Source: Salinimicrobium sediminis | GTDB lineage: Bacteria > Bacteroidota > Bacteroidia > Flavobacteriales > Flavobacteriaceae | Direction: 5' to 3' | Assembly: GCF_900215295.1 (NCBI RefSeq) | Contig: NZ_OCMF01000001.1 | Span: forward strand, 682,001 to 746,000 | Length of the DNA stretch: 64,000 nucleotides | Shown: positions 27,908 through 52,504 of the stretch, in pieces | Position numbering within the stretch: position 1 is the stretch's first letter | Layout: each line of letters opens with the position of its first letter | Notes under the pieces: generated by a model | Seen by the model: the letters and a program-made list of their open reading frames with translations, nothing else | What the model was told of the DNA's origin: nothing | The model's database searches: none | Made by a program: the position numbers and the translations under genes

Positions 27908-29134
27908 ATGTTAGAAAAAAACGATATTGAATACGAAAAAGCTGTGTTGATTGGAATCGTCACCCGGGAACAGAGCGAAGAGAAATTAGAGGAATACCTT
28001 GACGAACTTGAATTTTTGACCTACACTGCCGGCGGAGAGGTCATGAAAAGATTTACCCAGAAAATGGACGCCCCCAATCCCAAAACTTTTATTGGAACGG
28101 GGAAAATGGAAGATGTACGTGCGTTTGTTGAAGAACATGAAATTGGTGCGGCAATCTTTGATGATGAACTTTCACCTGCCCAGCAAAAGAATATTGAACG
28201 GATCCTGCATTGTAAAGTCCTTGACCGAACAGGGCTTATTCTTGACATTTTTGCCCAGCGTGCCACCACCAGCTATGCCCGCACCCAGGTAGAACTTGCC
28301 CAGTATGAATATTTGCTGCCACGCCTTGCAGGGATGTGGACTCACCTTGAGCGGCAGCGTGGAGGAATTGGAATGAGGGGACCGGGTGAAACCGAAATTG
28401 AGACAGACCGTAGGATCGTGCGGGACAAGATCGCACTTCTAAAAAAGAAGCTGGAGACCATTGACAGGCAAATGGAAGTGCAGCGTGGGAATCGCGGTCA
28501 ATTAGTGAGAGTTGCGCTGGTAGGTTATACTAACGTGGGTAAATCTACTCTGATGAACGTGATTAGCAAAAGCGAAGTTTTTGCTGAAAATAAACTTTTT
28601 GCCACCCTTGATACAACGGTGAGAAAAGTGGTGATAAGAAACCTTCCATTTCTGCTTACAGATACTGTTGGATTTATTCGAAAGTTACCTACTCAACTTG
28701 TGGAATCTTTTAAATCCACCCTTGATGAAGTAAGGGAGGCCGATCTTTTGCTGCATGTGGTTGATATTTCTCACCCCCAGTTTGAAGATCACATTGCTTC
28801 GGTAAACCAGATCCTTGCTGAAATCAAAAGTGCCGAAAAACCAACTCTTATGGTATTCAACAAGATCGATGCCTATAAAGCTGAAAAAATTGAGGAAGAT
28901 GACCTGATGACCGAAAAAACCAGCTCTCACAATACCCTGGCCGAATGGAAAAACACCTGGATGAACCGTTTGGGAGAGGATGTGCTTTTTATTTCTGCCC
29001 TTAACAAGGAGAATATGGAGGAATTTAAGAAGAAGGTATATGAAGCCGTGAGGCAGATCCACATCACAAGGTTTCCTTACAATAACTTTTTGTACCCGGA
29101 GTATGACACCTATACAGATGAAGAAGAAGAATAA
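27908..29134 (+). CDS. hflX: ribosome-associated GTPase HflX
   Basis: 408-aa GTPase that splits stalled ribosomes under stress. The N-terminal nucleotide-binding domain (about residues 1-160) ends in the Gly-rich RGGIGMRGPGETEIE loop (151-165), a coiled-coil linker follows, and the G domain has G1 GYTNVGKST (206-214), G3 DTVGF and G4 NKID. It is flanked by genes with unrelated roles. There is no clear terminator after it. Confidence 0.95.
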   Translation: MLEKNDIEYEKAVLIGIVTREQSEEKLEEYLDELEFLTYTAGGEVMKRFTQKMDAPNPKTFIGTGKMEDVRAFVEEHEIGAAIFDDELSPAQQKNIERILHCKVLDRTGLILDIFAQRATTSYARTQVELAQYEYLLPRLAGMWTHLERQRGGIGMRGPGETEIETDRRIVRDKIALLKKKLETIDRQMEVQRGNRGQLVRVALVGYTNVGKSTLMNVISKSEVFAENKLFATLDTTVRKVVIRNLPFLLTDTVGFIRKLPTQLVESFKSTLDEVREADLLLHVVDISHPQFEDHIASVNQILAEIKSAEKPTLMVFNKIDAYKAEKIEEDDLMTEKTSSHNTLAEWKNTWMNRLGEDVLFISALNKENMEEFKKKVYEAVRQIHITRFPYNNFLYPEYDTYTDEEEE

Positions 29135-29172
29135 TCAAATTTCCTATTTTTAAAAGATCTAAATTCCTGACT

Positions 29173-29904
29173 ATGAAAAAGCTGCTCCTTTTACCTCTGT
29201 TGTTCTTCTTCGGAATCCTGTCTGCGCAGGAACTGGATGGCTCCTGGAAACTAATCAAAGTTAATGGAGAACCTGTGACAAATGAGGAAACTATCCGCAT
29301 CTATGAAGACGGTTACTTCGCCTACGGAAAGAAAGAAACAGGAACAAACAAATTTTTGGAAGCCGGGGGTGGAGAATATATTCTGCAAAACGGATACGTT
29401 GAGATCTATGATTTTAATACTTCCGATACGTCCATGGTAGGAAAAGAGGTCCAATACGCCATTTCTGAAGGAGAAGATATGTTTACCATTAAAACGAAAG
29501 ATGGAAAATCCCAGACATGGGAAAGGGTTTCTTCAAGTACCAATGAGCTTTCCGGCAACTGGGTGATCACTGGAAGAAAACGCAACGATGAAATGAACAG
29601 GATGACACCGGGCGATCGGAGAACTATAAAGATCCTTGGTGGCGATCGTTTCCAATGGGTCGCATTTAATTCAGAAACCAAAGAATTCTCCGGCACAGGA
29701 GGCGGCACTTATTCTGCTGAAAATGGAAAGTATACAGAAAATATTGAATTCTTCTCCCGGGATGACAGCCGTGTAGGAGCCAGTCTGGATTTTGGCTATG
29801 AAGTTAAGGACGGCGAGTGGCACCATAGCGGAAAAAGCTCTAAAGGAGATCCCATTTATGAGATCTGGTCTCCCTATGCTGAAGCTTATAAGAAAGAAAA
29901 ATAA
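29173..29904 (+). CDS. secreted protein with two lipocalin-like repeats
   Basis: 243 aa with a signal peptide (MKKLLLLPLLFFFGILSAQ). The mature protein is two homologous units (about 20-118 and 122-243). Each opens with L(D/S)G(S/N)W, has a central (G/E)xGGG(T/E)Y motif (EAGGGEY and GTGGGTY), then an aromatic strand, and ends with a conserved Trp (TWERV and IWSPY). This is typical of DUF4488/lipocalin-like beta-barrel proteins that bind small hydrophobic ligands; the ligand is unknown. The tail of this gene has a decayed copy at 30656-30739. Confidence 0.8.
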   Translation: MKKLLLLPLLFFFGILSAQELDGSWKLIKVNGEPVTNEETIRIYEDGYFAYGKKETGTNKFLEAGGGEYILQNGYVEIYDFNTSDTSMVGKEVQYAISEGEDMFTIKTKDGKSQTWERVSSSTNELSGNWVITGRKRNDEMNRMTPGDRRTIKILGGDRFQWVAFNSETKEFSGTGGGTYSAENGKYTENIEFFSRDDSRVGASLDFGYEVKDGEWHHSGKSSKGDPIYEIWSPYAEAYKKEK

Positions 29905-29927
29905 AATTTATTTTTTCATAATTATTA

Positions 29928-29960
29928 AATACCTCCCGGACGATCGGGAGGTATTTTTTT
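29928..29960 (+). terminator. rho-independent terminator after the lipocalin-like gene
   Basis: Perfect 11-bp stem (AATACCTCCCG paired with CGGGAGGTATT) followed by a T-run. The homologous position in the duplicated block (about 30750-30800) has kept only the right arm. Confidence 0.9.
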
Positions 29961-29969
29961 ATTCCCCTG

Positions 29970-30000
29970 TTGCGGTTTTTATATAATTTACTTATATTGA
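29970..30000 (+). promoter_or_regulatory. promoter of lipoprotein copy 1
   Basis: TTG (29970-29972), 20-nt spacer and TATATTGA (29993-30000). The same pair with the same spacing recurs before copy 2, although the spacer itself has diverged. This supports a functional promoter. Confidence 0.55.
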
Positions 30001-30059
30001 ACCAGTTACCCTACACAAACTATCCCCCTTCATTTATAAACCTTTTAAAATACCTTATC

Positions 30060-30587
30060 ATGAAGGCAAATTACTATTTTGTGTTGGCGGTAATTATTCT
30101 CGCAGTTTCTTGTCAGAAAGAAGAAGAAGTTAAAGAGGAACTTGAGGTTGAAGATGCTATCGTTTATGAAGAATTCTTTAAAGGCGAATTAGCAGGGAAA
30201 AAATTTGAAATTGAAAATCCGGAATATAAGGAAGCAAATCGCAGTGTAGGATTTGAATCCGGAATTCCTGCACTTTCCGTATGGGGATACGAAGAAGGTT
30301 GGGGAGAAATGGGAATCTATTTTTGTTTTTATGAAGGGAAAGGCAGCTACACTACCGGAAATAAGAAAGACGTAGGCTATTCTTATTTTTGGGACGCTGA
30401 GGACAATTACTGGGAAGATCTCCCTCAAATGAATAATCCCAGTGAAATTGAAATCACTTATGCAGATGAAAATATTGTAGAAGGAACCTTTAATGTTGTC
30501 GCCTATAACATAGATGACACAACAGATGTTATAGAATTTAAAGGCTCTTTTGGAGTTCTTATCGAAAAAGAGGGGGATGAAAATTAG
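30060..30587 (+). CDS. small lipoprotein, tandem copy 1
   Basis: 175 aa from MKANYYFVL. A signal peptide with lipobox (AVSCQKEEEV, Cys near residue 16) is followed by an acidic linker (EEVKEELEVEDA) and a compact domain (about 35-170) with a YFCFYEGKGSYTTGNKKDVGYSY core and an ADENIVEGTFNV beta hairpin. An upstream in-frame start (29970) would add residues encoded by the leader and destroy the signal peptide, so it is rejected. It is related to copy 2 (30903-31430) over its whole length. Function unknown; an outer-membrane location is likely. Confidence 0.8.
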   Translation: MKANYYFVLAVIILAVSCQKEEEVKEELEVEDAIVYEEFFKGELAGKKFEIENPEYKEANRSVGFESGIPALSVWGYEEGWGEMGIYFCFYEGKGSYTTGNKKDVGYSYFWDAEDNYWEDLPQMNNPSEIEITYADENIVEGTFNVVAYNIDDTTDVIEFKGSFGVLIEKEGDEN

Positions 30588-30655
30588 TTTTAGGAATTGT
30601 ATAAACTACTAGAATTCCTAGTTATAATAGCAGTAACGGAAGTTTTCTTCATCCT

Positions 30656-30739
30656 TTTGACTGCTGTAAAAGTTTAAAAGAAGATTTTATTTATAAAATC
30701 GTGTATCCCTTTTCTGAAGCATATTATAAAGAAAATTAG
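30656..30739 (+). pseudogene. decayed 3' tail of a lipocalin-like gene copy
   Basis: Reading 30656-30739 gives a 27-residue peptide ending in a stop that aligns with the last residues of the gene at 29173-29904. IYKI aligns with IYEI, and SEAYYKEN then stop aligns with AEAYKKEK then stop, followed by similar A/T-rich sequence. No start or upstream domain remains. It is best read as the remnant of a segmental duplication that also created lipoprotein copy 2. Confidence 0.6.
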
Positions 30740-30812
30740 AATTCTTTTTTCATCATTATCAGGCACATCGCGGGTGACTTTTATATCCGGGAGGCTATTT
30801 TTCGTTTACCCA

Positions 30813-30843
30813 TTGCTGCTTTGAGATAGTTTGCTTATATTGA
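30813..30843 (+). promoter_or_regulatory. promoter of lipoprotein copy 2
   Basis: TTG (30813-30815), 20-nt spacer and TATATTGA (30836-30843), with the same spacing as copy 1. The 82 bp from 30834 to 30915, covering the -7 element, leader and start codon, are identical to 29991-30072. This feature, the relic at 30656-30739 and the degraded terminator explain the 315-bp gap between the two lipoprotein genes. Confidence 0.55.
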
Positions 30844-30902
30844 ACCAGTTACCCTACACAAACTATCCCCCTTCATTTATAAACCTTTTAAAATACCTTA
30901 TC

Positions 30903-31430
30903 ATGAAGGCAAATTTCTATTTTGTGTTGGCGGTAATTATTCTCGCCGTTTCTTGTCAAAAAGAAGAAGAAGTTAAAGAGGAACTTGAAGTTGAAGATGC
31001 TGTTGTTTATGAAGAATTTTTCATAGCTGATGTACAAGGCAAAGATTTTGAAGTTCTGGACCCTGAAGCAATGAGTGCCGGCAGAAGTGTGGGACGTGAG
31101 TCAGGAATTCCCGCTCTCGGTGTCTATGGATATGAGAAAGATTATGGATATATATTCATTTACTTTTGCTTTTATGAAGGGGAAGGAACATATACCACAG
31201 CCAATAAAAAGGATGTTGGCTATTCATATCTTTGGAAAGACAATGGTGAATTTTGGGAAGACATATCAAAAATGGACACTCCCAGTGAAATAATTATCAC
31301 CTATGCCGATGAAAATGTAGTGGAAGGAACTTTCGAAATCATAGCTTATAATAATGATGACCTTTCCCAAAAAATAGAAATTACCGGCTCTTTTGGGTTA
31401 CTCCTTGAGGAAGAGGATACGGAAAAATAA
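30903..31430 (+). CDS. small lipoprotein, tandem copy 2
   Basis: 175 aa, paralogue of copy 1. The signal peptide, lipobox (VSCQKEEEV) and acidic linker are nearly identical, but the mature domain is much more diverged (core YFCFYEGEGTYTTANKKDVGYSY retained; start of the domain, FIADVQGKDFEVLDPEA, different). That pattern suggests different ligands or strong constraint on the leader. It ends 31 bp before the convergent FAD oxidoreductase gene. Function unknown. Confidence 0.8.
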   Translation: MKANFYFVLAVIILAVSCQKEEEVKEELEVEDAVVYEEFFIADVQGKDFEVLDPEAMSAGRSVGRESGIPALGVYGYEKDYGYIFIYFCFYEGEGTYTTANKKDVGYSYLWKDNGEFWEDISKMDTPSEIIITYADENVVEGTFEIIAYNNDDLSQKIEITGSFGLLLEEEDTEK

Positions 31431-31461
31431 AATTTTTGGCAAATAAGTACATCCAACTAAA

Positions 31462-33015
31462 TCATCCCATCGCCAAAACGGCTTTTTCAGCACATTTCTC
31501 ACCGTCTATAGCTGCGGAAACTATTCCGCCGGCATAACCTGCACCTTCGCCACATGGATAAAGGCCTTTGATCTGTACGTGTTCAAGCGTAGCAGGATTC
31601 CTCGGAATTCTCACAGGAGATGAAGTTCTGGATTCGGTGGCATGCACTACAGCTTCATTGGTAAAATAGCCTTTCATGCTTTTACCAAATTCCCTGAAAC
31701 CATTCTGTAGACTTTTATACACAAAGCCGGGCAACACTTCTGCCAACTCAACTGAAGCAATTCCGGGTTTATAGGAAGTTACCGGCAAAGTTGCGGAAAC
31801 TTTCCCATTGCTGAAGTCTACCAGCCGCTGGGCCGGAGCTGTTTGGGTTTTTCCCCCTGCTCGCCAGGCTTTTTGTTCCACCTCCTGTTGAAACCGCAAG
31901 GCTGCCAACGGCGAGTCTCCAAAAATGGCAAAATCTGATGGTCTTATTTCCACCACAATTCCCGAATTCGCGGTAGCCTGGTCCCTCTTACTCGGAGACC
32001 AGCCGTTTGTTACAATCTCACCGGGCGAAGTAGCACAGGGCGCTATAATTCCGCCGGGGCACATACAAAAAGAATAGACCCCCCTGCCCTGGACCTGTTT
32101 TACAATACTGTAAGAAGAAGGAGGTAAAAATTCGCCGCGGTTTGGCGTGCAATATTGAATTTCGTCAATTAATTCCTGTGGATGCTCCACCCTTACCCCC
32201 AGCGCAAAAGCTTTGGCTTCTATATGGATGTTTTTAGAATACAGCAATTCAAAAATGTCCCGGGCCGAATGACCGGTGGCTAAAACGACTTTTTTGGCTC
32301 CTATTTTTCTACCGTCCAGTAGTGTCACCCCCCGAATTTCTTCATCTTTAACTGTAAAATCTGTTACCCGCGAATTGAACAAAACCTCCCCTCCATGCTC
32401 AATAATAGTTCTGGTCATTTCCTGAATAATGGCCGGTAATTTATTGGTCCCAATATGAGGATGTGCCTCCACCATAATCTGTTTTGTGGCACCAAAAGCA
32501 ACAAACAATTCCAGGATACGCTGTACATCACCCCGTTTTTTGCTTCGGGTGTAGAGTTTCCCATCAGAATATGTTCCGGCACCGCCTTCTCCGAAACAAT
32601 AATTTGAATCCTCATTGACAACGTGCTCAATGTTCAGCTTTTTGAGATCCCTGCGGCGGGCGCGAACATCCTTTCCTCTTTCTAGCACTATGGGTTTCTT
32701 CCCCAGCTCAATGCACCGCAGTGCAGCGAAAAGTCCGGCGGGACCGGCACCCACAATGATAATTTCTTCGGCATTGGAGACATTTTGATATTCCGGAGGA
32801 GTTATCTTTTCTTCTTTAAAATCTTCTTTCAGGAACACCTGTACCTTCAGGTTAACCTTGATATTCCGCTGCCGGGCATCAATGCTTCTTTTAAGGATCT
32901 CCACATGATTGATATCCTTAAATGGCAGGTCATATTGGCGGGACAGAAACTGCTTTAAAGCTTCAGCATTTGCGGCAGTTTCAGGTGGCACCTGGAAAGA
33001 AAATTCTTTTTGCAT
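31462..33015 (-). CDS. FAD-dependent oxidoreductase (COG2509-like)
   Basis: 517 aa. An N-terminal accessory segment (about 1-85) precedes a Rossmann FAD site GAGPAGLFAALR (about residues 90-101) and ERGKDVRARRRD. Further motifs are GEGGAGTYSDGKL (about 140-152), ATGHSARD (about 243-250) and a C-terminal GEGAGYAGGIVSAAIDG (about 490-506). This family of uncharacterised dehydrogenases is widespread. The substrate is unknown, and the neighbours give no clue. Probably cytosolic. Confidence 0.85.
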   Translation of the reverse strand: MQKEFSFQVPPETAANAEALKQFLSRQYDLPFKDINHVEILKRSIDARQRNIKVNLKVQVFLKEDFKEEKITPPEYQNVSNAEEIIIVGAGPAGLFAALRCIELGKKPIVLERGKDVRARRRDLKKLNIEHVVNEDSNYCFGEGGAGTYSDGKLYTRSKKRGDVQRILELFVAFGATKQIMVEAHPHIGTNKLPAIIQEMTRTIIEHGGEVLFNSRVTDFTVKDEEIRGVTLLDGRKIGAKKVVLATGHSARDIFELLYSKNIHIEAKAFALGVRVEHPQELIDEIQYCTPNRGEFLPPSSYSIVKQVQGRGVYSFCMCPGGIIAPCATSPGEIVTNGWSPSKRDQATANSGIVVEIRPSDFAIFGDSPLAALRFQQEVEQKAWRAGGKTQTAPAQRLVDFSNGKVSATLPVTSYKPGIASVELAEVLPGFVYKSLQNGFREFGKSMKGYFTNEAVVHATESRTSSPVRIPRNPATLEHVQIKGLYPCGEGAGYAGGIVSAAIDGEKCAEKAVLAMG

Positions 33016-39720: not shown

Positions 39721-40782
39721 GTGATTATAAAAAGATATTTTTTGCTCCTTTCAGCCTTAATTCTCTGGAACTCTCCTTCGGTTTCATGTCAGGAAAAGCG
39801 GGAATATGAGGTGGTGAGCATTGCATTCTACAATCTGGAGAACCTTTTTGATACCTATGATGATCCTAATATTTTCGATGATGATCGCACTCCTGCCGGA
39901 AAGGATAAATGGACAGAAGAGCTGTATAGAAAAAAGCTGGAAAATATGGCTTTAGCAATCCACGAGATTGGCAGGGAACAAACCAATGCTCCTCCCGCTT
40001 TACTGGGAGTTTCTGAAGTCGAAAACAGGAAGGTTCTTGAAGACCTGATAGAAACACCACTTTTAGCACCCTACAATTATGGAATCATTCACTTCGATTC
40101 GCCCGATGAAAGAGGTATAGATGTCGGCTTACTCTATCAAAAGGCATTTTTCATCCCCTTACATTGGTCCAGTCACGAACTTGTACTGTATGAGCCGAAA
40201 ACTCCTTCTAAAAGAGATTTTACAAGGGATCAGTTAATAGTCACCGGACTACTAAAAGGAGAAGAAATACATGTAATGGTAAACCATTGGCCTTCGCGAA
40301 GCGGGGGAGAAAAATTAAGCAGCCATAAGCGAGAAAATGCAGCCAGGTTGACCCGGAGGATTTCAGATTCACTTTTTAGGATCAATCCTTATTCCAGGAT
40401 CATTGTTATGGGTGATTTTAATGACGATCCCATTAGTAAAAGTTTGTCCAAAGTTCTGGGGGCAAAATCCAAAAGGGATGATCTGGGATTGGACGAATTT
40501 TACAATCCTTATCATTCAATCTTCAGGAGCGGAGCAGGAAGTTCGGCATATCGGGATACATGGAACCTCTTTGACCAGATCCTCGTCTCAAAAACCCTCA
40601 CACAAAAAAACCCTGAAAAATTCTCATTTTTCAGGGCCTATATTTTTGACGAGCCTTTTTTGATCACCCGGGAAGGGCAGTATAAAGGATATCCATTCCG
40701 CAGTTTTGGCAGCACCGGCTTTACCGGTGGCTACAGCGACCATTTTCCGGTATTTATTCTTCTAATCAAAGAAAAATTTTAA
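39721..40782 (+). CDS. secreted endonuclease/exonuclease/phosphatase (GTG start)
   Basis: 353 aa with a signal peptide (MIIKRYFLLLSALILWNSPSVSC), so exported, unlike xth. Fold motifs are SIAFYNLENLFDTYDD (about residues 34-49), GVSEVENR (Glu near 99), NHWPSRSGG, VMGDFNDDP (Asp/Asn near 225) and a final SDHFP (His near 344). It could act on DNA, phosphodiesters or phosphorylated ligands. The GTG at 39721 is required to keep the signal peptide. It is divergent from receptor 1, and its 3' end overlaps the next gene by 4 bp. Confidence 0.88.
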   Translation: MIIKRYFLLLSALILWNSPSVSCQEKREYEVVSIAFYNLENLFDTYDDPNIFDDDRTPAGKDKWTEELYRKKLENMALAIHEIGREQTNAPPALLGVSEVENRKVLEDLIETPLLAPYNYGIIHFDSPDERGIDVGLLYQKAFFIPLHWSSHELVLYEPKTPSKRDFTRDQLIVTGLLKGEEIHVMVNHWPSRSGGEKLSSHKRENAARLTRRISDSLFRINPYSRIIVMGDFNDDPISKSLSKVLGAKSKRDDLGLDEFYNPYHSIFRSGAGSSAYRDTWNLFDQILVSKTLTQKNPEKFSFFRAYIFDEPFLITREGQYKGYPFRSFGSTGFTGGYSDHFPVFILLIKEKF

Positions 40783-41216
40783 AACCAGGCACTCCAGGGG
40801 ATTCTTGATAAAACGAAGATCAATGCCAGGCTGTAAAAAATCGAAAGGGTTTTAAATTTAGGGTGTGAGGTAAGCTTTTTCTTGTGTTTGGAATAACCTA
40901 CAGTGATAAGGATCACCGAAATGATCATGATTAACGGGTGTTCAACAAGATAAAGACGTAGAGTAGAATCTTTCATAACGCCACCCATGCCTACTTCTCC
41001 CAGGGCCTGAAAATAAGGAGAAACAAAATACAAGACAATTCCTATGAGGAGCTGGATATGGCTTGTTATAAGAGTAAAAAGCGCTAATCTAAACTCTGTT
41101 GCCCCGTAATCCTTTTTACTGAAAAGTCCGACAAGAGAGAGGACAACGGTTATAAGTAACACCAGGAGGACCAGATATGCCCACCAGGAATGAATGAATT
41201 GAACTGTTTCGTACAT
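40779..41216 (-). CDS. four-helix membrane protein
   Basis: 145 aa with four hydrophobic helices (about residues 12-30, 41-62, 92-110 and 120-140). His residues in helix contexts (IHSWWAYLV near 8, SHIQLLIG near 53, EHPLIMII near 92) resemble small cytochrome-b-like proteins annotated in related flavobacteria, but haem ligation is not proved by the sequence. Probably inner membrane. Its stop overlaps the convergent phosphatase gene by 4 bp. Confidence 0.7.
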   Translation of the reverse strand: MYETVQFIHSWWAYLVLLVLLITVVLSLVGLFSKKDYGATEFRLALFTLITSHIQLLIGIVLYFVSPYFQALGEVGMGGVMKDSTLRLYLVEHPLIMIISVILITVGYSKHKKKLTSHPKFKTLSIFYSLALIFVLSRIPWSAWF

Positions 41217-41252
41217 GGTTATTGGTTTTAGGGTAAAGATATGTTTTTTGCA

Positions 41253-41285
41253 TAAAAAAACCGCCCCGGTTCTCTGGGGCGGTTT
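41253..41285 (-). terminator. rho-independent terminator after the receptor 2 / repeat lipoprotein operon
   Basis: Perfect 10-bp stem (AAACCGCCCC paired with GGGGCGGTTT) followed on the minus strand by a T-run. It lies between the repeat lipoprotein stop codon and the four-helix membrane protein gene. Confidence 0.9.
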
Positions 41286-41307
41286 CTAAATTTGTTAGAA
41301 GAAGGAT

Positions 41308-42438
41308 TTAGTTAGCAACCCATTCTCCACCTTGCTTAATTACACTTACAGATCGGGTAGAATAAGAACCTGAATAAGTAGTAACATTAACAACATATTT
41401 TTGACCTTCCGGTGCATTTGGATCAATTCTGTCAAGAATAATACCTACCGCTTCCACAAACATTTCATCTGTCCAGGCTGTAGTATATCCTGTACGGACC
41501 TCGAAGCTGGAATAACGCTTCACGTTAGCTGCAGGCTCAGGATACACACTTAGAAGTGCATCACCAACCACAGCGTAATCACCAGGTGCAAAGTTGTATA
41601 TGATCGTATTATCTGGCTCCCAGGTTGTACCGTTGTGTCCAAACTGGAGAGTTTGCTCTACAAGTGCTCCAGGGGCTGTCCATTTTGTTCCGTCAAAGGT
41701 GAAAGTCTCAAGATTTTTCACAGTCTTTCCACCACCAATGTGACGAGCATACATTACGGTTTTTGTATCACCTTCCTGTGCATAGGGAAACCTCAAACGA
41801 AGGAAATTAGAAAGATCTGCGATAGCATCTTCTCTGTTAGAAAAGTTTGGAAATCTCTCTCCCATTTCAGTGTAGTCTTCTTTTGTCAAAGTAACTACTT
41901 CCATCCAGGTCTCACCATTATATACATGAGTAGTTGTTCTTGTAGAGGTACTACCTGCATAGTATTCATAGGTAAGTTCTACAGCATCACCTTCGGCAGC
42001 ATCAGGATATTTATAGTCAAGGAACTTAACCATATCATCTGCGCTGTCAAAGTTGCCGTATTTAAATCCAAGTTCTTTATATTCTTCTGAGGTAACTTCA
42101 TATTCTGTGAAATTAGTAACCTCAAAGTTAGGATTTTCAATAACGACAGTGACATTAGCAATAGATCCCTCACCCAATACAGGAAAACGTTCATTTAAAA
42201 AAGCTGGAATAGCAGCATTAGCAGCATCTAAAGAGGCGAAAAATTCATCCTCCAATCCTAAACCGCCCTTTTCAACAGAAGTGGTGTAATCATCCTCTGT
42301 AAGGACATATTCAACCGTTCCAAAATTTGGTTCAGCATCAATGGCAGCATTCACTTCTTCCTGAATGTCTTCCATAGGTTCACAGCCGGACAATAGTACC
42401 GCTGCAATCGTCATTAAAAAATAAACTGACTTTTTCAT
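41308..42438 (-). CDS. lipoprotein with four internal repeats, unknown family
   Basis: 376 aa with a lipobox (VLLSGCEP, Cys19). The mature protein contains four diverged units of about 60-95 residues (about 42-101, 111-180, 182-256 and 280-376). Most units have an acidic (T/P)xx(D/E)Y entry, a central (F/Y/D)PxAxEG motif (ERFPVLGEG, KYPDAAEG, RFPYAQEG, IDPNAPEG) and an NGxxW or GGEW end. I do not recognise a family. It starts 10 bp after receptor 2 and should be its surface partner. A ligand-binding or adhesin role is inference. Confidence 0.8.
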   Translation of the reverse strand: MKKSVYFLMTIAAVLLSGCEPMEDIQEEVNAAIDAEPNFGTVEYVLTEDDYTTSVEKGGLGLEDEFFASLDAANAAIPAFLNERFPVLGEGSIANVTVVIENPNFEVTNFTEYEVTSEEYKELGFKYGNFDSADDMVKFLDYKYPDAAEGDAVELTYEYYAGSTSTRTTTHVYNGETWMEVVTLTKEDYTEMGERFPNFSNREDAIADLSNFLRLRFPYAQEGDTKTVMYARHIGGGKTVKNLETFTFDGTKWTAPGALVEQTLQFGHNGTTWEPDNTIIYNFAPGDYAVVGDALLSVYPEPAANVKRYSSFEVRTGYTTAWTDEMFVEAVGIILDRIDPNAPEGQKYVVNVTTYSGSYSTRSVSVIKQGGEWVAN

Positions 42439-42448
42439 TTTAATTTTT

Positions 42449-44986
42449 TTAGAAGTTAAGTTTTAGTCCAACAGTGAAACTTCTTCCCCATCCATAATAC
42501 ACTCTGGATTTTTGGTAAGTCCCTGTTCCTCCATCTCTTGCAAAAGATACATATTCAGTATCAAATACGTTGTTAAGGTTTGCAATTAATAGTGCATCAA
42601 AACCTGCAAGATCAAATCCATGGGTAGCTCCAAAATCTACAAGACCATAAGCAGGAATTTCCCAGGCAGGTACTATTACTTCGGAAGTTTTTGAGTTTGG
42701 ATCAAAATCTGCATAAAGATTGTCATTGTAAGTCCAATCTACTCTAAGACCGGTATTTTCAAATACATCCCAGTCTGCTCCAAGAGCAAAAGTAGTTTGT
42801 GCAGAACCTCCAACTTTAAGGTCTTCGATATAAACATCAATGGTTCTTACAACTTCTTGTTGCTCATCTATAATGTCAACTCCTGTTACGTTGTTCATCC
42901 ATCTCCAGTCACCAAAAGAAGCCATACCTGTCAAGGTTAGGTTCTCAAAAGGACGAAAATCAACATCCATTTCAACTCCCTGGTGAAGTGCATTAATTCC
43001 AAGAATGTTAACAAATCCTACAGTCCCATCAGGTTGCTCGAAGCTAATTGGAAGAGTTCTGTCATTCCACTGGGTACGGTAAGCATTAAGGTTAACTCTC
43101 AGGTTAGTGGATCTAAATCCATATCCAAGTTCCGCACTAAAGATCTTTTGGTTTTCTGCATCAGCATTGATATCATTCCTGAAGTTTAGGAATACAGCAT
43201 CAAAATCTGGCGCCTTTTCAAAATAACCAATGTTAGCAAATACGTTGTGATTTCCGGTAAGGTTATAGTTAGCACCCCCTTTAGCACTGTATCCAAAGAA
43301 GTTTTGATAATCTGTCTCTCTTTCAGGATCTGAATCAAGGTAGCTGAAGTAATCAAGTCTCTTATAACCGGTGTTTGAAGCAGCCACAGAGATAAAGGCA
43401 GAAAGGTCGTTTCTTGAATATTCAGCCTGAGCAAAAAGACCCGCCCAGTTTACAAAACCTTCATCATAATAACTGATCTTGTCTCCAACTTCAGCCATAT
43501 TTAATGGATTGTTTTCGTTACTCCTGTCTATGGCAAAACGTCCTCCAAGAAGGTCGGTAAGCTCAGTATAATGTTCCCCTACATAATAACGAAGATCGGC
43601 TCCTCCAGTAAAGGTGATATCTTCTGAAAGTTCTGTAGTTAAAGTAGAAAGCGCACCATACCATTGGTGATTATTTCTTGAGGCTCTTAAATAGGTTTCT
43701 GAACCAAGAGCTCCGCGTGCTTCATTCTCATCTACAATTCTGTCAAGATCAATAGGTCCAAGTTCCCCGATTCTGTAGTCAGAATCAAGTCCGAACTTGT
43801 TTACTCCTGCCCATCCGCCACCGCCTCCGGTACCAAATGAAGCATAAAGTGCAGTAGAAAGTGTTGTAGCATCACTAATGTTCCAGTAGTGGTTTAAGCT
43901 CATCTGTGGTTTGTGGTAGAAGTTATCTTCAATGTGCTTAACCTCTCCATTAAGATAGCCCCAGTCTCCATTGAATCTGTCTCCTCTTTCGCTTCTTTCA
44001 TAAACTGAAATCTCATGGGCATTTTGACGTTGCCCGTGATATTGTGGAGCACCAAATACTGTAAATGATAGTTGGTGATCTTCATTAAATTGTTTTGCGA
44101 TGTTAAGGAAATAAGAATAAGCTTCAAATTCTGTAGCATCTACGTAACCGTCACCTGTGGTTTTAGAAGCAGAAATTGTAGCTGCCCATCCATTATCCAG
44201 TAAACCTGTAGAGACTGTTGCTCCGATTTTCTGACGGTTATAGGTTCCCATTTCATAAAAAAGATTTCCACCTTCTTCTGAATCGGTACTTTTTGTAACG
44301 ATGTTAATTGTACCCCCAATAGAAGGCACAGCAACCTTAGAAGCTCCAAGACCACGCTGAACCTGCATAGAACGGGTAACATCTGAAAGACCTGCCCAGT
44401 TTGACCAGTAAACACGTCCATTTTCCATGTCGTTTACTGGGATACCATTGATCATCACCGCAATATTCTCAGAGTTAAATCCTCTCAAACGGATTTCAGA
44501 ATCTCCAAAACCACCACCACCTTTGTGAGCATAAACCCCCGGGGTAGATTTTAGAATTTCAGGAAACTCCTGGCTTCCAAGCTGAGTCTCAATCTCTTCG
44601 GCCCTAATTGTAGAAACTGCAACCGGAGTTTTACGATCAATAGCTAAAGAGTAAGCAGTGATCACAATCTCGTCAAGAGCATCTGCATCAGGAGTAAATT
44701 GAATTCTTCCAAGATCAACAGTCTGACCGTTGGCTACTTTAAATTCTACTCTTTTAGTTTCAAAACCTACGTAGCTAATTTCAATAGTGCCGCTTGCCTT
44801 CTCCACTTCAAGACTAAAAACCCCACCAAAATCGGTGATCGTTCCATTGTTGGTTCCCACTACCCTTACGTTAGCACCGGGTAAAGGGGCTTCCATGTCA
44901 GCATCTATCACCGTACCGGTTACGACGCCTTGTGCAAAAATTGTAGCCGACGTTAAAAAAAACGCTAATGCTAAAAATTTCCTCAT
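42449..44986 (-). CDS. TonB-dependent outer-membrane receptor (receptor 2)
   Basis: 845 aa from MRKFLALAFFLTSATIFAQ, the signal peptide; an ATG 13 codons upstream (45025) would put charged residues before it. A carboxypeptidase-regulatory-like domain (about 20-95, GTVIDADMEAPLPGANV) is followed by plug motifs IRLRGFNSENIAVMINGIPV and SIGGTINIVT, and a barrel ending VGLKLNF. Plug and early barrel segments (NGRxxWSNW, NHYW) match receptor 1, so the two are distant paralogues. It is followed by the repeat lipoprotein. Substrate unknown. Confidence 0.9.
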   Translation of the reverse strand: MRKFLALAFFLTSATIFAQGVVTGTVIDADMEAPLPGANVRVVGTNNGTITDFGGVFSLEVEKASGTIEISYVGFETKRVEFKVANGQTVDLGRIQFTPDADALDEIVITAYSLAIDRKTPVAVSTIRAEEIETQLGSQEFPEILKSTPGVYAHKGGGGFGDSEIRLRGFNSENIAVMINGIPVNDMENGRVYWSNWAGLSDVTRSMQVQRGLGASKVAVPSIGGTINIVTKSTDSEEGGNLFYEMGTYNRQKIGATVSTGLLDNGWAATISASKTTGDGYVDATEFEAYSYFLNIAKQFNEDHQLSFTVFGAPQYHGQRQNAHEISVYERSERGDRFNGDWGYLNGEVKHIEDNFYHKPQMSLNHYWNISDATTLSTALYASFGTGGGGGWAGVNKFGLDSDYRIGELGPIDLDRIVDENEARGALGSETYLRASRNNHQWYGALSTLTTELSEDITFTGGADLRYYVGEHYTELTDLLGGRFAIDRSNENNPLNMAEVGDKISYYDEGFVNWAGLFAQAEYSRNDLSAFISVAASNTGYKRLDYFSYLDSDPERETDYQNFFGYSAKGGANYNLTGNHNVFANIGYFEKAPDFDAVFLNFRNDINADAENQKIFSAELGYGFRSTNLRVNLNAYRTQWNDRTLPISFEQPDGTVGFVNILGINALHQGVEMDVDFRPFENLTLTGMASFGDWRWMNNVTGVDIIDEQQEVVRTIDVYIEDLKVGGSAQTTFALGADWDVFENTGLRVDWTYNDNLYADFDPNSKTSEVIVPAWEIPAYGLVDFGATHGFDLAGFDALLIANLNNVFDTEYVSFARDGGTGTYQKSRVYYGWGRSFTVGLKLNF

Positions 44987-45106
44987 TGTGTAATTTGTTA
45001 GTTTGTGTTTAAAAAGTTGGTGCAAAAGAACAACTTTCTTTAAAAATATCCTTTAACTTAAGGTTAAGAATTTTTCACAAAAAGGAAGACGTTTTCAACA
45101 GTCTGC

Positions 45107-45140
45107 AAAATGAAACAACCCCCTGTTCTTCAGGAGGTTG
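45107..45140 (-). terminator. terminator of the DUF3108-kynA-M23-pgi operon
   Basis: 10-bp stem with one mismatch (CAACCCCCTG paired with CAGGAGGTTG, loop TTCTT), followed on the minus strand by a broken T-tract. It is located downstream of pgi. Confidence 0.65.
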
Positions 45141-45171
45141 CTCGAAATCTTAATAAAAAGCTAACTTGCTG

Positions 45172-46806
45172 TTATTGTTGAAGATAAAACTTTAACAGTT
45201 GTGAAGTAGAAGAATCATGCTCTGCAACCTTCTTTTCCTCTATTTCTTTCAAAATATTTGTAGCCAATTGCTTACCCAATTCCACGCCCCATTGATCATA
45301 ACTGTATATGTTCCAGATAATACCCTGCACGAAGATCTGATGCTCGTATAGTGCTATTAACTTTCCAAGGCTTTCCGGAGTTAATTGATCGATGAGAATA
45401 GTGGTGGTGGGATGATTGCCCTTGAAGACCTTAAAAGGTAAAAGTTTTTCCACTTCAGAAGCCGGTGTTTTTTTAGATTCCAGTTCCTTTCTTACCTCCG
45501 GGGAACTCTTCCCCTGCAACAGCGCTTCTGTCTGTGCAAAGAAATTGGCCATCAACTTATTGTGGTGATCCTGTTCATTATGCAAAGATCTCCTGAAGCC
45601 AATAAAATCTGCGGGGATCAACTTTGTCCCCTGGTGGATCAACTGGAAGAAGGCATGCTGGGAATTGGTCCCGGGCTCCCCCCAAACTATGTTTCCGGTT
45701 TGATAGGTTACCTCATCCCCATTGCGATCCACTCCCTTACCGTTGCTTTCCATAATTGCCTGTTGTAAATAGGCAGGAAACCTGTGAAGATATTGGGTAT
45801 AAGGAATGATTGCCTGTGTTTCAGCTTTAAAGAAGTTGTTGTACCACACCGTAAGCAATGCCAGTTGCACAGGAAGATTATCTTTAAAATCAGTTTCTTT
45901 AAAATGCCTGTCCATTTTACGGGCACCTTCAAGCAAAGCTTCAAAATTATTATAACCTACCGCGAGAGCTATAGATAATCCTACCGCACTCCAAAGCGAA
46001 AAGCGACCGCCAACCCAATCCCACATGGGGAAAATATTTTCGGTTTCGATTCCAAAATCCTCCACAGCCTTTACATTGCTGGACACGGCAATAAAGTGCT
46101 TCGCAACTGCCTCTGTAGGAGCTTTTCTGGTAAACCACTTTCTAATAGTATTGGAATTAGTAAGGGTTTCCTGGGTGGAAAAAGATTTGGAAACTATTAC
46201 AAAAAGAGTGGTTTCAGGATTGAGATCCTTGATCACTTCCTGCACGTGATCTCCATCAACATTAGAAACAAAATGTATTTTAAGATGATTCCTGTAATGT
46301 TCTAAAGCTTCGGCCACCATCACAGGTCCAAGATCTGAACCTCCGATTCCAATGTTAACAATATCGGTAAAAGCTTTTCCTGTATAGCCTTTTTTAGCAC
46401 CGGTTATGACAGAATAGCAAAAATTTTTGATCTTCTCCTTTACCTCAAAAACTTCAGGTATTACATTTTCACCATCAACCTTAATTAATGCGTCCTGCTC
46501 ATCCCTAAGAGCGGTATGAAGTACAGCACGACCTTCGGTCTTATTAATGGTCTCTCCTTCAAAAAGAGCATTTATAGCTTCTTTTAAACCTGCTTCTTCA
46601 GCAAGCTGCAACAGCAGATCTTTGGTTTCGGCAGTGATAAGATTTTTGCTGTAATCTACATATAGATCCTCCCAGTTAAGGGTAAAAGCTTCGGCCCGTG
46701 CAGGATCATTTTTAAACTCCTGCTTTAGATCAAGATCTTTTATTCGATTATAATGCTCCTGTAATTTTTTCCAGCTTTCAGTTTGGGTAGGGTTGGTATT
46801 GGTCAT
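45172..46806 (-). CDS. pgi: glucose-6-phosphate isomerase
   Basis: Interconverts glucose-6-phosphate and fructose-6-phosphate in glycolysis and gluconeogenesis. 544 aa, the normal length for the long form. Signature motifs are [11 protein letters not shown] (about residues 155-165), [12 protein letters not shown] (about 208-219), [16 protein letters not shown] (about 270-285) and [11 protein letters not shown] (about 505-515). It is the last gene of a tight minus-strand operon, 3 bp after the M23 peptidase gene. Confidence 0.97.
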
Positions 46807-46809
46807 TTT

Positions 46810-48051
46810 TTATATGGATTCTTTAAATTCTATCTGCCCTAACTCATCCTTCAACGGTTCAATAGTAGCAAAATAGGAAGGGATGTATTTATCTTCAATA
46901 GGCTCCGCCGAAGGGAGGTTCTGCCGGAAAGGATCAACCTGTACCCCATTCTTCCAGAAGCGATAGCATACGTGTGGTCCTGTTGCCAGCCCGGTACTTC
47001 CCACGTACCCTATTACTTCCCCCTGCTTTACCCTTTCCCCCTGCCTAACTGCGCGTTTAGACATGTGAAGGTATTGGGTAGTATAGGTATCATTATGCTT
47101 GATCTTCACATAATTTCCATTACCTGCGGTGTAGGAAGACGCAATAACTACCCCGTTTGCGGTACTTTTTATAGGAGTCCCATGAGCTGCGGCATAATCG
47201 GTTCCTTTGTGAGCTTTCCAGCGTTTTTGCACCGGATGGAACCTGTTTGGACTAAAGCGGGAAGATATTCTGAAGAAATCTAAAGGAGCCTTCAAAAAGA
47301 AACTTTGTAAAGGTCGTGCTTTTTCATCATAGTAATCTCTGCTACCCGCTACAGAATCCACCATGAAATTAAAAGCATAATAAGGTTTGTCCTCATGATA
47401 AAAGACTGCTGCTTCTATATTTTCGATACCGGCATAGATAGTATCATTAATGTACTTCTCATTATAAACCAGCTTAAACCGGTCTCCTTTTTGAAGCCTG
47501 AAGAAATCTATACTCCATTGATAAATATTGCTCATTTCATGAGCCAAGAGATAATTAAGACCAGCATCCTCCATAGCTTCAGAAAGACTGGAGTTGATCA
47601 TTCCCGCAACAGTTTTCTTGGTAATAGTTACAGGTTTTTTGGCGGTATAGGCATTAATACTGTCTCTGAGATCAACCACGGTATAATTCACCAGGTCATT
47701 TTCATAGATAAAGGCTTTTGGCGTTTGTGCAGAATCCCTTTCCTTTAAAATGACATAAGGTTTCCCCACTACAATTCTTCGCGGATTCAAAGTGTCACGT
47801 ACTTTATTCACAATTTCGAAGATCTTATTTGGATCCACCCCATGAGTGCCAAGGATCACCCCAAAACTGTCGCCATTGCGTATGGTATCTCTTACCACTT
47901 CATAGTCATTCAGAATAAACCCGTACTCATTGATTATGGCAGGTTCAGGTTTTTCCGTTTTAATGTTATCGGCTATTTCGTCATTTTTCGGCTGGTCATT
48001 GCAGGCCGTTAAGGCCATCATCAACATTAGCAGGTAACTAAATTTCTTCAC
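46810..48051 (-). CDS. M23 (LytM-type) lipoprotein peptidase with Cys in the zinc site
   Basis: 413 aa with a lipobox (MALTACNDQ), an N-terminal region with LysM/Csd3-like features (about 40-250) and a C-terminal M23 domain (about 275-385). The HxxxD pair is His281 and Asp285 (HKGTDY). The usual HxH motif is His360-Val-Cys362 (GPHVCYRF), so the third zinc ligand is Cys instead of His; the codon is TGC. The fold should still cut or bind peptidoglycan, but activity may be altered. It lies between kynA and pgi. Confidence 0.88.
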   Translation of the reverse strand: MKKFSYLLMLMMALTACNDQPKNDEIADNIKTEKPEPAIINEYGFILNDYEVVRDTIRNGDSFGVILGTHGVDPNKIFEIVNKVRDTLNPRRIVVGKPYVILKERDSAQTPKAFIYENDLVNYTVVDLRDSINAYTAKKPVTITKKTVAGMINSSLSEAMEDAGLNYLLAHEMSNIYQWSIDFFRLQKGDRFKLVYNEKYINDTIYAGIENIEAAVFYHEDKPYYAFNFMVDSVAGSRDYYDEKARPLQSFFLKAPLDFFRISSRFSPNRFHPVQKRWKAHKGTDYAAAHGTPIKSTANGVVIASSYTAGNGNYVKIKHNDTYTTQYLHMSKRAVRQGERVKQGEVIGYVGSTGLATGPHVCYRFWKNGVQVDPFRQNLPSAEPIEDKYIPSYFATIEPLKDELGQIEFKESI

Positions 48052-48063
48052 TCTTTATGTTTT

Positions 48064-49020
48064 TTAATGTGTTATCAATTCTTCAACCCATTGCTTTCCC
48101 CAATCCTTCATTTCTTGGGTACTCCAAAGTTCAGGAAAAAATGTAATTTTTTGAAAACCAGGAGGTAAAAAATCCTTCCAGTTAGTTCCACCGGTTGCTT
48201 TTACAGCACCTTTCTTTAGCATTAAATATCTTTGCGCCGCACCTATATGCACAAGCAACCAATTCACATTCACTGCTACATCCAGGTTACGCAACGCCTC
48301 AATTAAGTCTTTATTGTTTTTTTCTCCCTCAGGAAGAGAATTATACAGTTCCAGCAAGGTTTTCCCTTCTAATTTTTTTGCGAGCCGTAGGAAAATTTCA
48401 TCATATTTTTCCTCGAACTGTCTTAAAGTGAGTGTTTTTTCTCCGGTATCTGTACTAATACCGCCTCTCTTCCAATAAATATTTTGATAAACTTCTTCTA
48501 AATTCTTATTGCTACGGAAGTTTTCTCTATCGCCATGATGTACCAGGTTGTGCAGGGGGGTTGAATAGATCTCGATCATTCTGAATTGCCCTGACTGGAA
48601 TCCGCTCGCCGGAAGCAGGGCCATTCTAAACTTCAGAAACTGGTCCTTTTCCATGCCGCGGATCATCACATCAAAAGAATTGGTTTGAATGCGAAAGTAC
48701 CTTATGATCCTGTTGAGTTTTTGTATAAAAAAATCGGCTGTAAGGGATTTTTCTTCTACCAGCTGCTTTTGCTCGTGGAGAATGAGCTTAAAATAAAGTT
48801 CGGTGATCTGGTGGTACCCTATAAAGATCTCTTCGTCGGGAAAATGGGTTTTGGTGTTCTGAAGACTTAACAATGTATCCAGACTGATGTAATCCCAATA
48901 AGTCAAATACTTGTCATACAGAAGGCCGTCGAGATAAGACCCCAGATCCTGACCGGAATTTCTAAATTTTTCTTCCAGCTGCCGGACCTTTTCGGCTATC
49001 TCGGGATGTATTCCTTCCAT
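48064..49020 (-). CDS. kynA: tryptophan 2,3-dioxygenase
   Basis: Haem dioxygenase opening the indole ring of tryptophan to N-formylkynurenine. 318 aa. Visible family motifs are LTYWDYISLDTLLSLQ (about residues 34-49), GYHQITELYFKLILHE (about 64-79), PASGFQSGQFRMIE (about 136-149) and a final GGTNWKDFLPP. Its proximal haem His is likely the one in NWLLVHIG (about 255). It sits 1 bp after the DUF3108 gene. Confidence 0.9.
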   Translation of the reverse strand: MEGIHPEIAEKVRQLEEKFRNSGQDLGSYLDGLLYDKYLTYWDYISLDTLLSLQNTKTHFPDEEIFIGYHQITELYFKLILHEQKQLVEEKSLTADFFIQKLNRIIRYFRIQTNSFDVMIRGMEKDQFLKFRMALLPASGFQSGQFRMIEIYSTPLHNLVHHGDRENFRSNKNLEEVYQNIYWKRGGISTDTGEKTLTLRQFEEKYDEIFLRLAKKLEGKTLLELYNSLPEGEKNNKDLIEALRNLDVAVNVNWLLVHIGAAQRYLMLKKGAVKATGGTNWKDFLPPGFQKITFFPELWSTQEMKDWGKQWVEELITH

Positions 49021-49021
49021 G

Positions 49022-49795
49022 TTAATCCATTATTATATTTAAGGGATGTTTTAAACCTTTAAAAGCATCAATATCTGCATCCAGAGATCCAACTGCTAAA
49101 TTGGCTTTAATTTTTATTGGCATACGATTTTTGTCATCGCTTACCCACATAGTTAATCCCTCTTTCTTTTCAAATACCCGTCCTGCAAGAACATAAGGCT
49201 GAAATTTTAGTGCCGCAATATTACCTAATTTTGTTTTTACTACCTCCCTTCCAAGGAATTTTAACTGGAAATCATGAATTTCATCGTCTAAAAACATTTT
49301 TATGCTGTGCATTTCTCCTGCCTCCAGTTCCTTTACATCAAGATTATTCCTTAAATGATAAAAGGAAGAGATCATATCCTGAACATTAGCCGGAATTTTA
49401 TAAGTATTGCGTTCATTATGCTTACGATTAAAAACATGTGCGGCACCATTTTCATGGTCAAAATCCACTAAAAGATCTCTGGTATGACCTCCTTCATCAA
49501 TTTGCCTAATAAACCTGAGAGGCATTCCTGTTTCCTTGTGCATAAAAGATTCATAATTATCATCTACTTTAAAGAAAACATGCACCATCCCAGTAGAATT
49601 ACCTTTTCCTACCACGTGATAAACCGGTTGGTTTTTAAAGGTAGTTTCTTTTACTTCAAGAGTTGCAAAACCCGCATTGACCATTCCATAGTGGACTCTG
49701 AATCTAAACCATTCCCCATCCTGGAAAGCCTGGTGAGATTGTGCAGAGACATTAAGGGCTATAAGAGAAATTATAACTGCGAATATTTTTTTCAT
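49022..49795 (-). CDS. DUF3108 family protein
   Basis: 257-aa exported protein with a signal peptide (MKKIFAVIISLIALNVSAQS). The DUF3108 fold shows in EWFRFRVHYGMVNAGFATLEV (about residues 27-47), FFKVDDNYESFM and a C-terminal MWVSDDKNRMPIKIKANLAVGSL. It is a periplasmic protein of unknown role, possibly binding a lipid or a glycan. First gene of the DUF3108-kynA-M23-pgi operon. Confidence 0.88.
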   Translation of the reverse strand: MKKIFAVIISLIALNVSAQSHQAFQDGEWFRFRVHYGMVNAGFATLEVKETTFKNQPVYHVVGKGNSTGMVHVFFKVDDNYESFMHKETGMPLRFIRQIDEGGHTRDLLVDFDHENGAAHVFNRKHNERNTYKIPANVQDMISSFYHLRNNLDVKELEAGEMHSIKMFLDDEIHDFQLKFLGREVVKTKLGNIAALKFQPYVLAGRVFEKKEGLTMWVSDDKNRMPIKIKANLAVGSLDADIDAFKGLKHPLNIIMD

Positions 49796-49856
49796 GTTTA
49801 AGTAGGTTTAACTCTTTATAGGCTTACAATTACAATTTCTATTCCAAAGGTATTAA

Positions 49857-49893
49857 AACGAAAAAACCCCGTCAATACAATGACGGGGTTTTT
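49857..49893. terminator. bidirectional rho-independent terminator
   Basis: Perfect 13-bp stem (49862-49874 and 49881-49893, CCCCGTCA paired with TGACGGGG, loop ATACAA), with A-run and T-run so it works on both strands. It lies in the 299-bp gap 49796-50094. The remainder of the gap is A/T-rich and holds a four-codon stub ATG AAA AAA AAG TAA at 49923-49937. Confidence 0.85.
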
Positions 49894-50094
49894 AATCTTA
49901 TTAACCAACTAAAACTTAAATTATGAAAAAAAAGTAATTTTTTTTCCAACTTTGGTAACCACTCCAAAATTGCGGTGCAAAAGTCTTATATAAATCCTGT
50001 TATAACAACAGAAAAATTAACTTTAACTAAACACAATTGGGAATAATTTATTTTTAAGTTTCAGTTTACGATTTTATTAATAAAATAATTAAAA

Positions 50095-51231
50095 TTACAA
50101 GGTTCCCCGCAACGTTTGCTCTCTTTCAATTGCTTCAAAAAGAGCTTTAAAATTTCCTTTCCCAAAGGATTGTGCTCCTTTTCGCTGAATGATCTCAAAG
50201 AACATGGTTGGACGATCTAAAACAGGTTTGGTAAATATCTGTAAAAGATAACCCTCATCATCGCGGTCTATTAACACTCCCAATTCCTTAAGCGGCTCCA
50301 GTTCTTCATCGATCTCTCCCACCCTGTCAAGAACATCGTCATAATAAGCCTCGGGCACATAAAGAAATTCCACGCCGCGGTCGCGTAAAGCAGTCACAGT
50401 CTCTATAATATTATCTGTCGCTACTGCGATATGTTGAACGCCTGCCCCGTTGTAGAAATCAATATATTCTTCTATCTGAGATTTCTTCTTTCCTTCAGCA
50501 GGCTCATTAATAGGAAATTTGATCCTTCCGTTTCCATTGCTCATCACTTTACTCATCAGAGCTGTATAGTCTGTAGAAATGTCTTTATCATCAAAAGACA
50601 CCAATTGAGCAAAGCCCATTACTTTAGCATAGAACTCACACCATTTGTTCATTTCGTTCCATCCAACGTTACCAACCATATGGTCGATATACTTCAATCC
50701 CACATCTTTAACTTTGAAATTGGGCTTGTATTCTTTATAACCGGGAAGAAAAGGACCAGAGTAATTCTTTCTTTCCACAAAAATATGCACTGTCTCACCA
50801 TAGGTATGGATTCCGGATAGAACCACATGACCGTGCTCGTCGCTCAACTCTCTTGGCTCAAAATAAGATTTTGCTCCTCTCTTGGTAGTTTCTTCATAGC
50901 TCTTACGGGCATCGTCAACCCATAGGGCAACAACTTTTACCCCGTCACCATGTTTGTCGATATGTTCATTGACCTCTCCTCCGGGTTGTAAAGGACTGGT
51001 AAGGACCAATCGAATTTTTCCCTGTTGTAAAACATATGAAACCCTATCTTTACTTCCAGACTCCAGACCGGAATAAGCTACCGGCTGGAATCCCCAGGCT
51101 TGTTGGTAATAAAAAGCAGCTTGCTTTGCATTGCCAACATATAATTCAACGTAATCTGTTCCCAGAAGCGGAAGAAAATCTTCGGCCTGGGGTACAGTTT
51201 TCTTTATTTGTGTGGTGTTTTCTGTAGACAT
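50095..51231 (-). CDS. hpd: 4-hydroxyphenylpyruvate dioxygenase
   Basis: Converts 4-hydroxyphenylpyruvate to homogentisate with Fe(II). 378 aa, two vicinal-oxygen-chelate domains. Iron ligands are a His in YIDHMVGNV (about residue 183), a His in GVQHIAVATDN (about 263) and Glu in FFEIIQRKG (about 350). Family motif PAEGKKKSQIEEYIDFYNGAG is split by normal sequence. It lies 84 bp downstream of hmgA and should be co-transcribed. Confidence 0.95.
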   Translation of the reverse strand: MSTENTTQIKKTVPQAEDFLPLLGTDYVELYVGNAKQAAFYYQQAWGFQPVAYSGLESGSKDRVSYVLQQGKIRLVLTSPLQPGGEVNEHIDKHGDGVKVVALWVDDARKSYEETTKRGAKSYFEPRELSDEHGHVVLSGIHTYGETVHIFVERKNYSGPFLPGYKEYKPNFKVKDVGLKYIDHMVGNVGWNEMNKWCEFYAKVMGFAQLVSFDDKDISTDYTALMSKVMSNGNGRIKFPINEPAEGKKKSQIEEYIDFYNGAGVQHIAVATDNIIETVTALRDRGVEFLYVPEAYYDDVLDRVGEIDEELEPLKELGVLIDRDDEGYLLQIFTKPVLDRPTMFFEIIQRKGAQSFGKGNFKALFEAIEREQTLRGTL

Positions 51232-51315
51232 AATTTTATTTTTTAAAGTCGCACTGCGATCTGTTTCTATTTCAATTAAACGGAATCCAAAGTTAATCTT
51301 TTTGGAAAGTTTGGA

Positions 51316-52476: not shown

Positions 52477-52492
52477 CTTTTTATCTTTTAAT

Positions 52493-52504
52493 GAAAACGT
52501 TTTC
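52493..52504. promoter_or_regulatory. palindromic operator-like site before hmgA
   Basis: Perfect 12-bp palindrome GAAAACGTTTTC with a central CG, the layout of LacI/PurR-family operators. It lies 17 bp upstream of the hmgA start codon, in the probable 5' UTR, where a bound repressor could block transcription. No LacI-family gene is in the window. Confidence 0.4.

Follow-up and report, generated by a model that had tools for sequence, protein, structure and literature searches.

The two adjacent small lipoprotein genes LP1 and LP2 of Salinimicrobium sediminis are best explained, with a probability of about 0.8, by an old tandem duplication whose 5' end was later patched by gene conversion. 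A block of approximately 0.8 kb, composed of a gene tail, a terminator, a leader and a lipoprotein gene, is present twice, head to tail, adjacent and in the same orientation, with a copy offset of 843 nt from the leader into the gene and of 834 nt before the terminator loop. Two copies lie side by side here and relatives have one or none; the arrangement is a tandem segmental duplication. The leader and the signal peptide have a history younger than, and different from, that of the flanking stretches.

Locus and gene order

The window, that is, the whole stretch of DNA that was analysed, comprised 64,000 nt of S. sediminis (NZ_OCMF01000001.1, positions 682,001–746,000), and all coordinates are window positions. 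The genome holding it has a size of 3.48 Mb and belongs to the same genus as Salinimicrobium nanhaiense (G011), this genus being Salinimicrobium or what GTDB groups with Salinimicrobium. The gene order was a GTPase gene (27908–29134), a gene for a 243-aa secreted protein (29173–29904), LP1, LP2 and a convergent oxidoreductase gene (31462–33015). From their translations, we take the first and the last to encode an hflX-like GTPase and an FAD oxidoreductase, respectively.

The gene of the secreted protein is an intact ORF on the plus strand and the source of the relic tail described below. Its product had been named lipocalin-like, a name that the curated Pfam cut-offs do not sustain (12.2 bits against 22.4 for Lipocalin_4 and 12.4 against 24 for META), and it may be lipocalin/META-like at most weakly. 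An intact intrinsic terminator with a 13-pair stem and a T run follows it (29927–29956, plus strand). The arms of this terminator are unrelated between the genome of the window and G011 (L034:2390–2470), and variants of a GACCTnACAGG...CCTGTnAGGTC palindrome were seen by eye at the terminator place in six of 12 genus genomes (G011, G010, G009, G008, G003 and G004); a fixed-loop version of the palindrome had no match in the window with up to three mismatches. Terminators after the upstream gene seem to have been swapped wholesale.

LP1 (30060–30587) and LP2 (30903–31430), both on the plus strand, encode small lipoproteins of 175 aa each with a protein identity of 67%. Longer TTG starts, at 29970 for LP1 and 30831 for LP2, were present in the mechanical ORF list; the ATG starts were taken because these ATGs open signal peptides.

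The duplicated block

The pairwise alignment of 29625–29970 with 30588–30813 gave a local score of 111, whereas 1000 dinucleotide shuffles averaged 26 and reached 53 at most, so that similarity beyond chance extends upstream of the lipoprotein leader. This homology comprises the leader, the terminator stretch and approximately the terminal 26 codons of the upstream gene, counting the stop. The relic of the 3' end of that gene is located at 30663–30739 (plus strand) and aligned to 29828–29904 with a score of 72 against a maximum of 34 in 500 shuffles, which bears out the decayed tail placed before LP2 in the initial annotation. For the 28-codon frame proposed there (30656–30739), translating as FDCCKSLKEDFIYKIVYPFSEAYYKEN and a stop, homology holds from 30663 on, the first two codons falling outside the alignment. 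Of the 24 residues in the tail of the window's genome (G000), 13 are retained in the relic and at least 16 in each of the 11 other genus tails; being below even the most distant of these, the relic is as expected of a sequence freed from constraint. Between the end of LP1 and the relic (30588–30662) a search for additional homology to the upstream gene was negative (score 18, matched by 417 of 500 shuffles), so that either the left break lies near 29828 or the remainder has been eroded.

A damaged copy of the terminator stretch follows the relic (30740–30830, plus strand; score 51 against a maximum of 43 in 500 shuffles). Its right arm, CGGGAGG, is exact, its left arm carries substitutions and its loop has a 9-nt insertion; the earlier description, in which only the right arm was kept, was nearly right, the left arm being still present in substituted form. 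The hairpin predicted for 29915–29970 had −19.3 kcal/mol (z −4.36) and that for the damaged copy (30745–30812) −11.8 kcal/mol (z −1.07). The alignment, together with the comparison across the genus, supports the duplication of a block made up of gene end, terminator, leader and lipoprotein gene, as had been proposed. A further hairpin after LP1 (30588–30640), TAGGAATT..AATTCCTA, without a T run and with a fold z of −1.34, weakly suggests a terminator between LP1 and LP2.

Distribution in the genus and the family

The genus sample consisted of 12 genomes, that of the window included, two of which (G001 and G008) were only 74–75% complete. The upstream protein was matched in all 12 and the lipoprotein in two, the genome of the window and G011; in the other 10, the two incomplete ones among them, no lipoprotein match was obtained at E ≤ 0.01 with either a single sequence or a profile. 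In five of these lipoprotein-free genomes (G004, G005, G006, G007 and G008) an FAD oxidoreductase gene lies 59–435 nt after the upstream gene, and in the other five no oxidoreductase match was present within the 7 kb fetched. A single lipoprotein gene with the same neighbours as LP1 and LP2 was found in G011, and neither the relic nor a second copy was detected at its locus; two copies were seen only in the genome of the window. In a contig search the first scan confirmed none, and an alignment-based scan returned one locus, in S. nanhaiense J15B81-2 (JAAVJQ010000001.1). No relative with the relic and without the second lipoprotein was seen in the genus sample, the sole lipoprotein-bearing relative found having neither. 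On the simplest reading, one lipoprotein gene would have arisen here in the common lineage of S. sediminis and S. nanhaiense.

A single-sequence search of 299 family genomes (E ≤ 0.01) gave matches in 19, that of the window included, the other 18 being weak (25–53% identity over parts). The profile of the three genes picked small lipoproteins of flavobacteria, the majority of which carry an acidic stretch behind the cysteine, and the family-genome homologues that it retrieved for LP1, LP2 and the G011 protein were mostly small lipoproteins. Phage relatives of LP1 were not found at E 0.01.

Protein characteristics

Both genes are intact, and a pN well below pS between their bodies, from codon 37 on (0.25 against 0.77), suggests that each is maintained for its protein. 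Directly after the lipobox, read by eye as AVSC, comes QKEEE, so that both proteins have CQKEEE starting at residue 18; the G011 protein has CQKEEG. The LES optimum defined in Capnocytophaga canimorsus is C-X-K-(D/E)2-X in the accessible part of its description (PMC5080379). CQKEEE conforms to this motif after the lipobox cysteine and, together with the lipobox, makes surface exposure likely; LP1 and LP2 are probably surface lipoproteins.

Similarity to named families remained below all curated cut-offs. LP1 reached 24.4 bits for DUF5025 (PF16428; gathering cut-off 26.8), to which neither LP2 nor the G011 protein had a match; scores were 16.2 and 14.5 bits for DUF6252 (PF19765; gathering cut-off 27.2) and 34 and 32.6 bits for the NF052634 Riean_0653 family (curated cut-off 57). 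Structure models had a mean pLDDT of 56.9 for LP1 (2 alignment rows) and 65.9 for LP2 (3 rows). Mature LP2 was modelled as almost all beta, with 10-residue pLDDT means of 57–87 over residues 41–170, and its three best structural matches were chains of mycobacterial LpqH, of borderline strength (Z 8.2, 7.8 and 7.0, the typical best Z without a clear match being 7 to 8 for this tool), the first with an rmsd of 3.2 over 107 residues. Foldseek gave 4zjm_G at E 0.06 and no match at E ≤ 0.001; bovine odorant-binding proteins, its best rows (E 0.005), were rejected because a TM of 0.22 is too poor. Among solved structures, the search by sequence returned one, at E 0.28.

Timing of the duplication

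The extent of decay, which had been expected to date the event, gives no single date, because the body is almost saturated at its synonymous sites, the leader has a young appearance and the tree leaves undecided whether duplication or split came first. For the body (codons 37 on), pS was 0.77 between LP1 and LP2, 0.74 between LP1 and G011 and 0.61 between LP2 and G011, the first two values being at saturation; the LP1 and LP2 bodies share 60% amino acid identity. The median pS of window genes against G011 was 0.47 (range 0.13–0.78) in 55 rows, which include LP1 and LP2, both paired with one G011 gene, and from which rows with coverage <70% or pS not >1.5 × pN (partial or shadow frames) had been dropped; pS rose with pN (Spearman 0.43). 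Elsewhere in the window, 10 of the 11 genes in 40779–56590 (starts 40779–54794) had pS ≥0.54 to G011, as did seven of the 34 rows starting before 40000, two of these seven being LP1 and LP2; one of the 11, at 41308 (minus strand), had only 34% identity to its best match. The stretch 40779–56590 was possibly replaced as a block by recombination.

For outgroup rooting, 15 profile hits in 18 family loci were available. The first tree used 13 of them, and the joining of L025_2 to LP1 in it was taken as a long-branch artefact. The final body tree used 10: L021_0 and L028_2, too long and already absent from the first tree, were excluded, as were L023_0 and L025_2 for their long branches and L031_3, which is nearly identical to L024_0. 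LP1 and LP2 were joined with a support of 60/46, the three bodies forming a star, with a G011 branch of about zero and both paralogues long. LP1 with G011 (p-AU 0.47) and LP2 with G011 (p-AU 0.14) were not rejected, and rooting with these distant family lipoproteins singled out no pairing.

The duplication may predate the split from S. nanhaiense, in which one copy and the relic would then have disappeared, for example via recombination between the leaders; we give this timing slightly less than even odds, and it is compatible with duplication plus conversion. It agrees with the LP1–LP2 body divergence, which equals or exceeds that to G011, and with an intact upstream gene ahead of the G011 gene and an LP2-like 3' end behind it. 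However, the G011 body is only slightly nearer to LP2, sharing 63 sites with LP2 alone and 52 with LP1 alone, with no significant clustering (p 0.10), and the nearly zero G011 branch with long paralogues suits equally well a duplication that followed the split, both paralogues then changing faster. A mosaic of LP1 and LP2 in the G011 gene was rejected as the informative coding-region sites, 54 siding with LP1 and 64 with LP2, were not significantly clustered (permutation p 0.10, runs p 0.35), also with one vote per codon (81 codons; p 0.17 and 0.53). Amino acid changes unique to LP1, LP2 and G011 numbered 16, 21 and 10, and unique synonymous changes at invariant residues 18, 14 and 11; the former would fit a speed-up after duplication and the latter do not decide. 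From these data we infer that the duplication and the split between S. sediminis and S. nanhaiense were roughly contemporaneous, in either order.

The near-identical 5' tract

The homogenised tract extends over 29991–30175 in the first copy and, 843 nt downstream, over 30834–31018 in the second (both plus strand), and runs from the promoter edge through the 5' UTR and signal peptide into the export-signal region, the first residues behind the presumed lipid-bearing cysteine. It was the best-scoring segment, with six mismatches, and was equalled in none of 2000 permutations; the longest run identical between LP1 and LP2, of 82 nt (29991–30072), was reached in none of 10000, the longest of which was 54. 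Identity in 30-nt windows was 0.57–0.80 at 29810–29989, 0.90–1.00 at 29990–30169 and 0.53–0.80 at 30170–30589. Gene conversion leaves this pattern, a short tract flanked at either end by old sequence.

Comparison with G011 strengthened this result. Over 165 aligned sites of 29992–30158, LP1 and LP2 agreed and differed from G011 at 33 and differed from each other at four; over 426 aligned sites of the body (30159–30584) these counts were 33 and 147 (Fisher p 2e-16). Scaled from the G011 distances, constraint alone would leave about 43 differences in the tract, against the four seen (binomial p 2e-16), with this one sequence as outgroup. The stretch is thus far more alike than its flanks and beyond what constraint accounts for against this outgroup, as in a conversion tract. 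The four differences inside it indicate that the conversion was not very recent. As the gene is known in one relative only, every genealogical statement is one about three sequences.

The tract takes in the edge of promoter-like TTG-N20-TAnnTTG elements, at 29970–30000 for LP1 and 30813–30843 for LP2 (plus strand), whose position in the alignment is identical for LP1, LP2 and G011; we take this form, which has 15 matches on both strands of the window, to be the Bacteroidetes-type promoter consensus. A 5' UTR core, TTACCCTAC..TATCCCCCTTCA, at 30006–30032 and 30849–30875, is common to G011 and may be a leader-specific regulatory site. The pattern ACCCTACN{3,12}CCCCCTTCA was present in two of four genomes, without matches outside the loci of LP1, LP2 and G011, and the exact gapped pattern TTACCCTACN{3,16}CCCCCTT matched one of 199 family genomes, that of the window, at just two leaders. 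Rfam gave no match at the gathering cut-off in 29000–31600.

A plain tandem duplication without conversion, in which strong selection on a regulatory 5' UTR and an export signal keeps the leader and signal peptide identical, would agree with the leader core shared with G011, with the restriction of the exact gapped pattern to these two leaders and with a tract that, between species too, is slightly better conserved than the body (divergence to G011 of ~0.22 against ~0.29). It is nonetheless improbable, given the deficit of differences calculated above and a G011 sequence that departs from both copies at 33 of the 165 tract sites, which shows that the tract tolerates change. That the relic is a chance similarity of AT-rich sequence, for which only its small length and the conserved residues that it lacks speak, is practically negligible with two separate parts outscoring all shuffles at nearly the offset of the lipoprotein copies.

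Proposed history

Under duplication followed by conversion, a tandem duplication at about the parting of the two species would have produced two lipoprotein genes, after which the useless gene tail and the second terminator would have decayed and the two mature proteins would have diverged under purifying selection. A later recombination between the copies would have overwritten a 5'-terminal stretch of some 170–185 bp in one with the sequence of the other, leaving promoter edge, 5' UTR, signal peptide and CQKEEE in common ahead of different mature domains. The outcome would probably be a pair of small beta-rich surface lipoproteins with equivalent promoters and diverged binding surfaces, that is, one common expression and export cassette serving two different binding faces.

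Comparison with known systems

The locus is a clear small example of a lipoprotein pair arising by tandem duplication. It is also a warning that paralogue pairs are undatable from one stretch, since leader, body and relic differ in apparent age. Among the open-licence papers listed for gene conversion between tandem or lipoprotein paralogues, no title or abstract opening referred to this locus; the single paper combining Salinimicrobium and lipoprotein concerned cardiovascular risk by its title, and none was found for DUF5025. Tandem duplication and conversion between paralogues are, in kind, known processes of ordinary genome evolution.

Gene conversion and concerted evolution between prokaryotic paralogues are known, as stated in the accessible part of PMC6053082. 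As there, paralogues of the same genome are closer to each other than to the copy of another species, here in one tract; unlike there, this is a short leader and signal-peptide tract in one lineage and not whole genes. The cysteine followed by Q-K-E-E-E resembles the Bacteroidetes LES lipoproteins as described in the consulted portion of PMC5080379, although that optimum comes from C. canimorsus.

Repeated conversion might keep the leader and signal-peptide block uniform, a common expression and surface-export cassette being needed, while the mature domains diversify; this extension is unlikely. OspE/F-like leader peptides reportedly stand ahead of different surface lipoproteins. The OspE/OspF-related (Erp) lipoproteins of Borrelia, encoded on cp32 plasmids, have a common 'upstream homology box', according to the available part of PMC7002432, and LP1 and LP2 are like them in having similar promoter sequences ahead of different, here putative, surface lipoproteins. 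Unlike the cp32 families, they form one chromosomal-type tandem pair, and the likeness is one of arrangement and implies no host role. If repeated conversion does act here, the pair would be a minimal chromosomal counterpart of the shared-leader, variable-body layout of spirochaete lipoprotein families.
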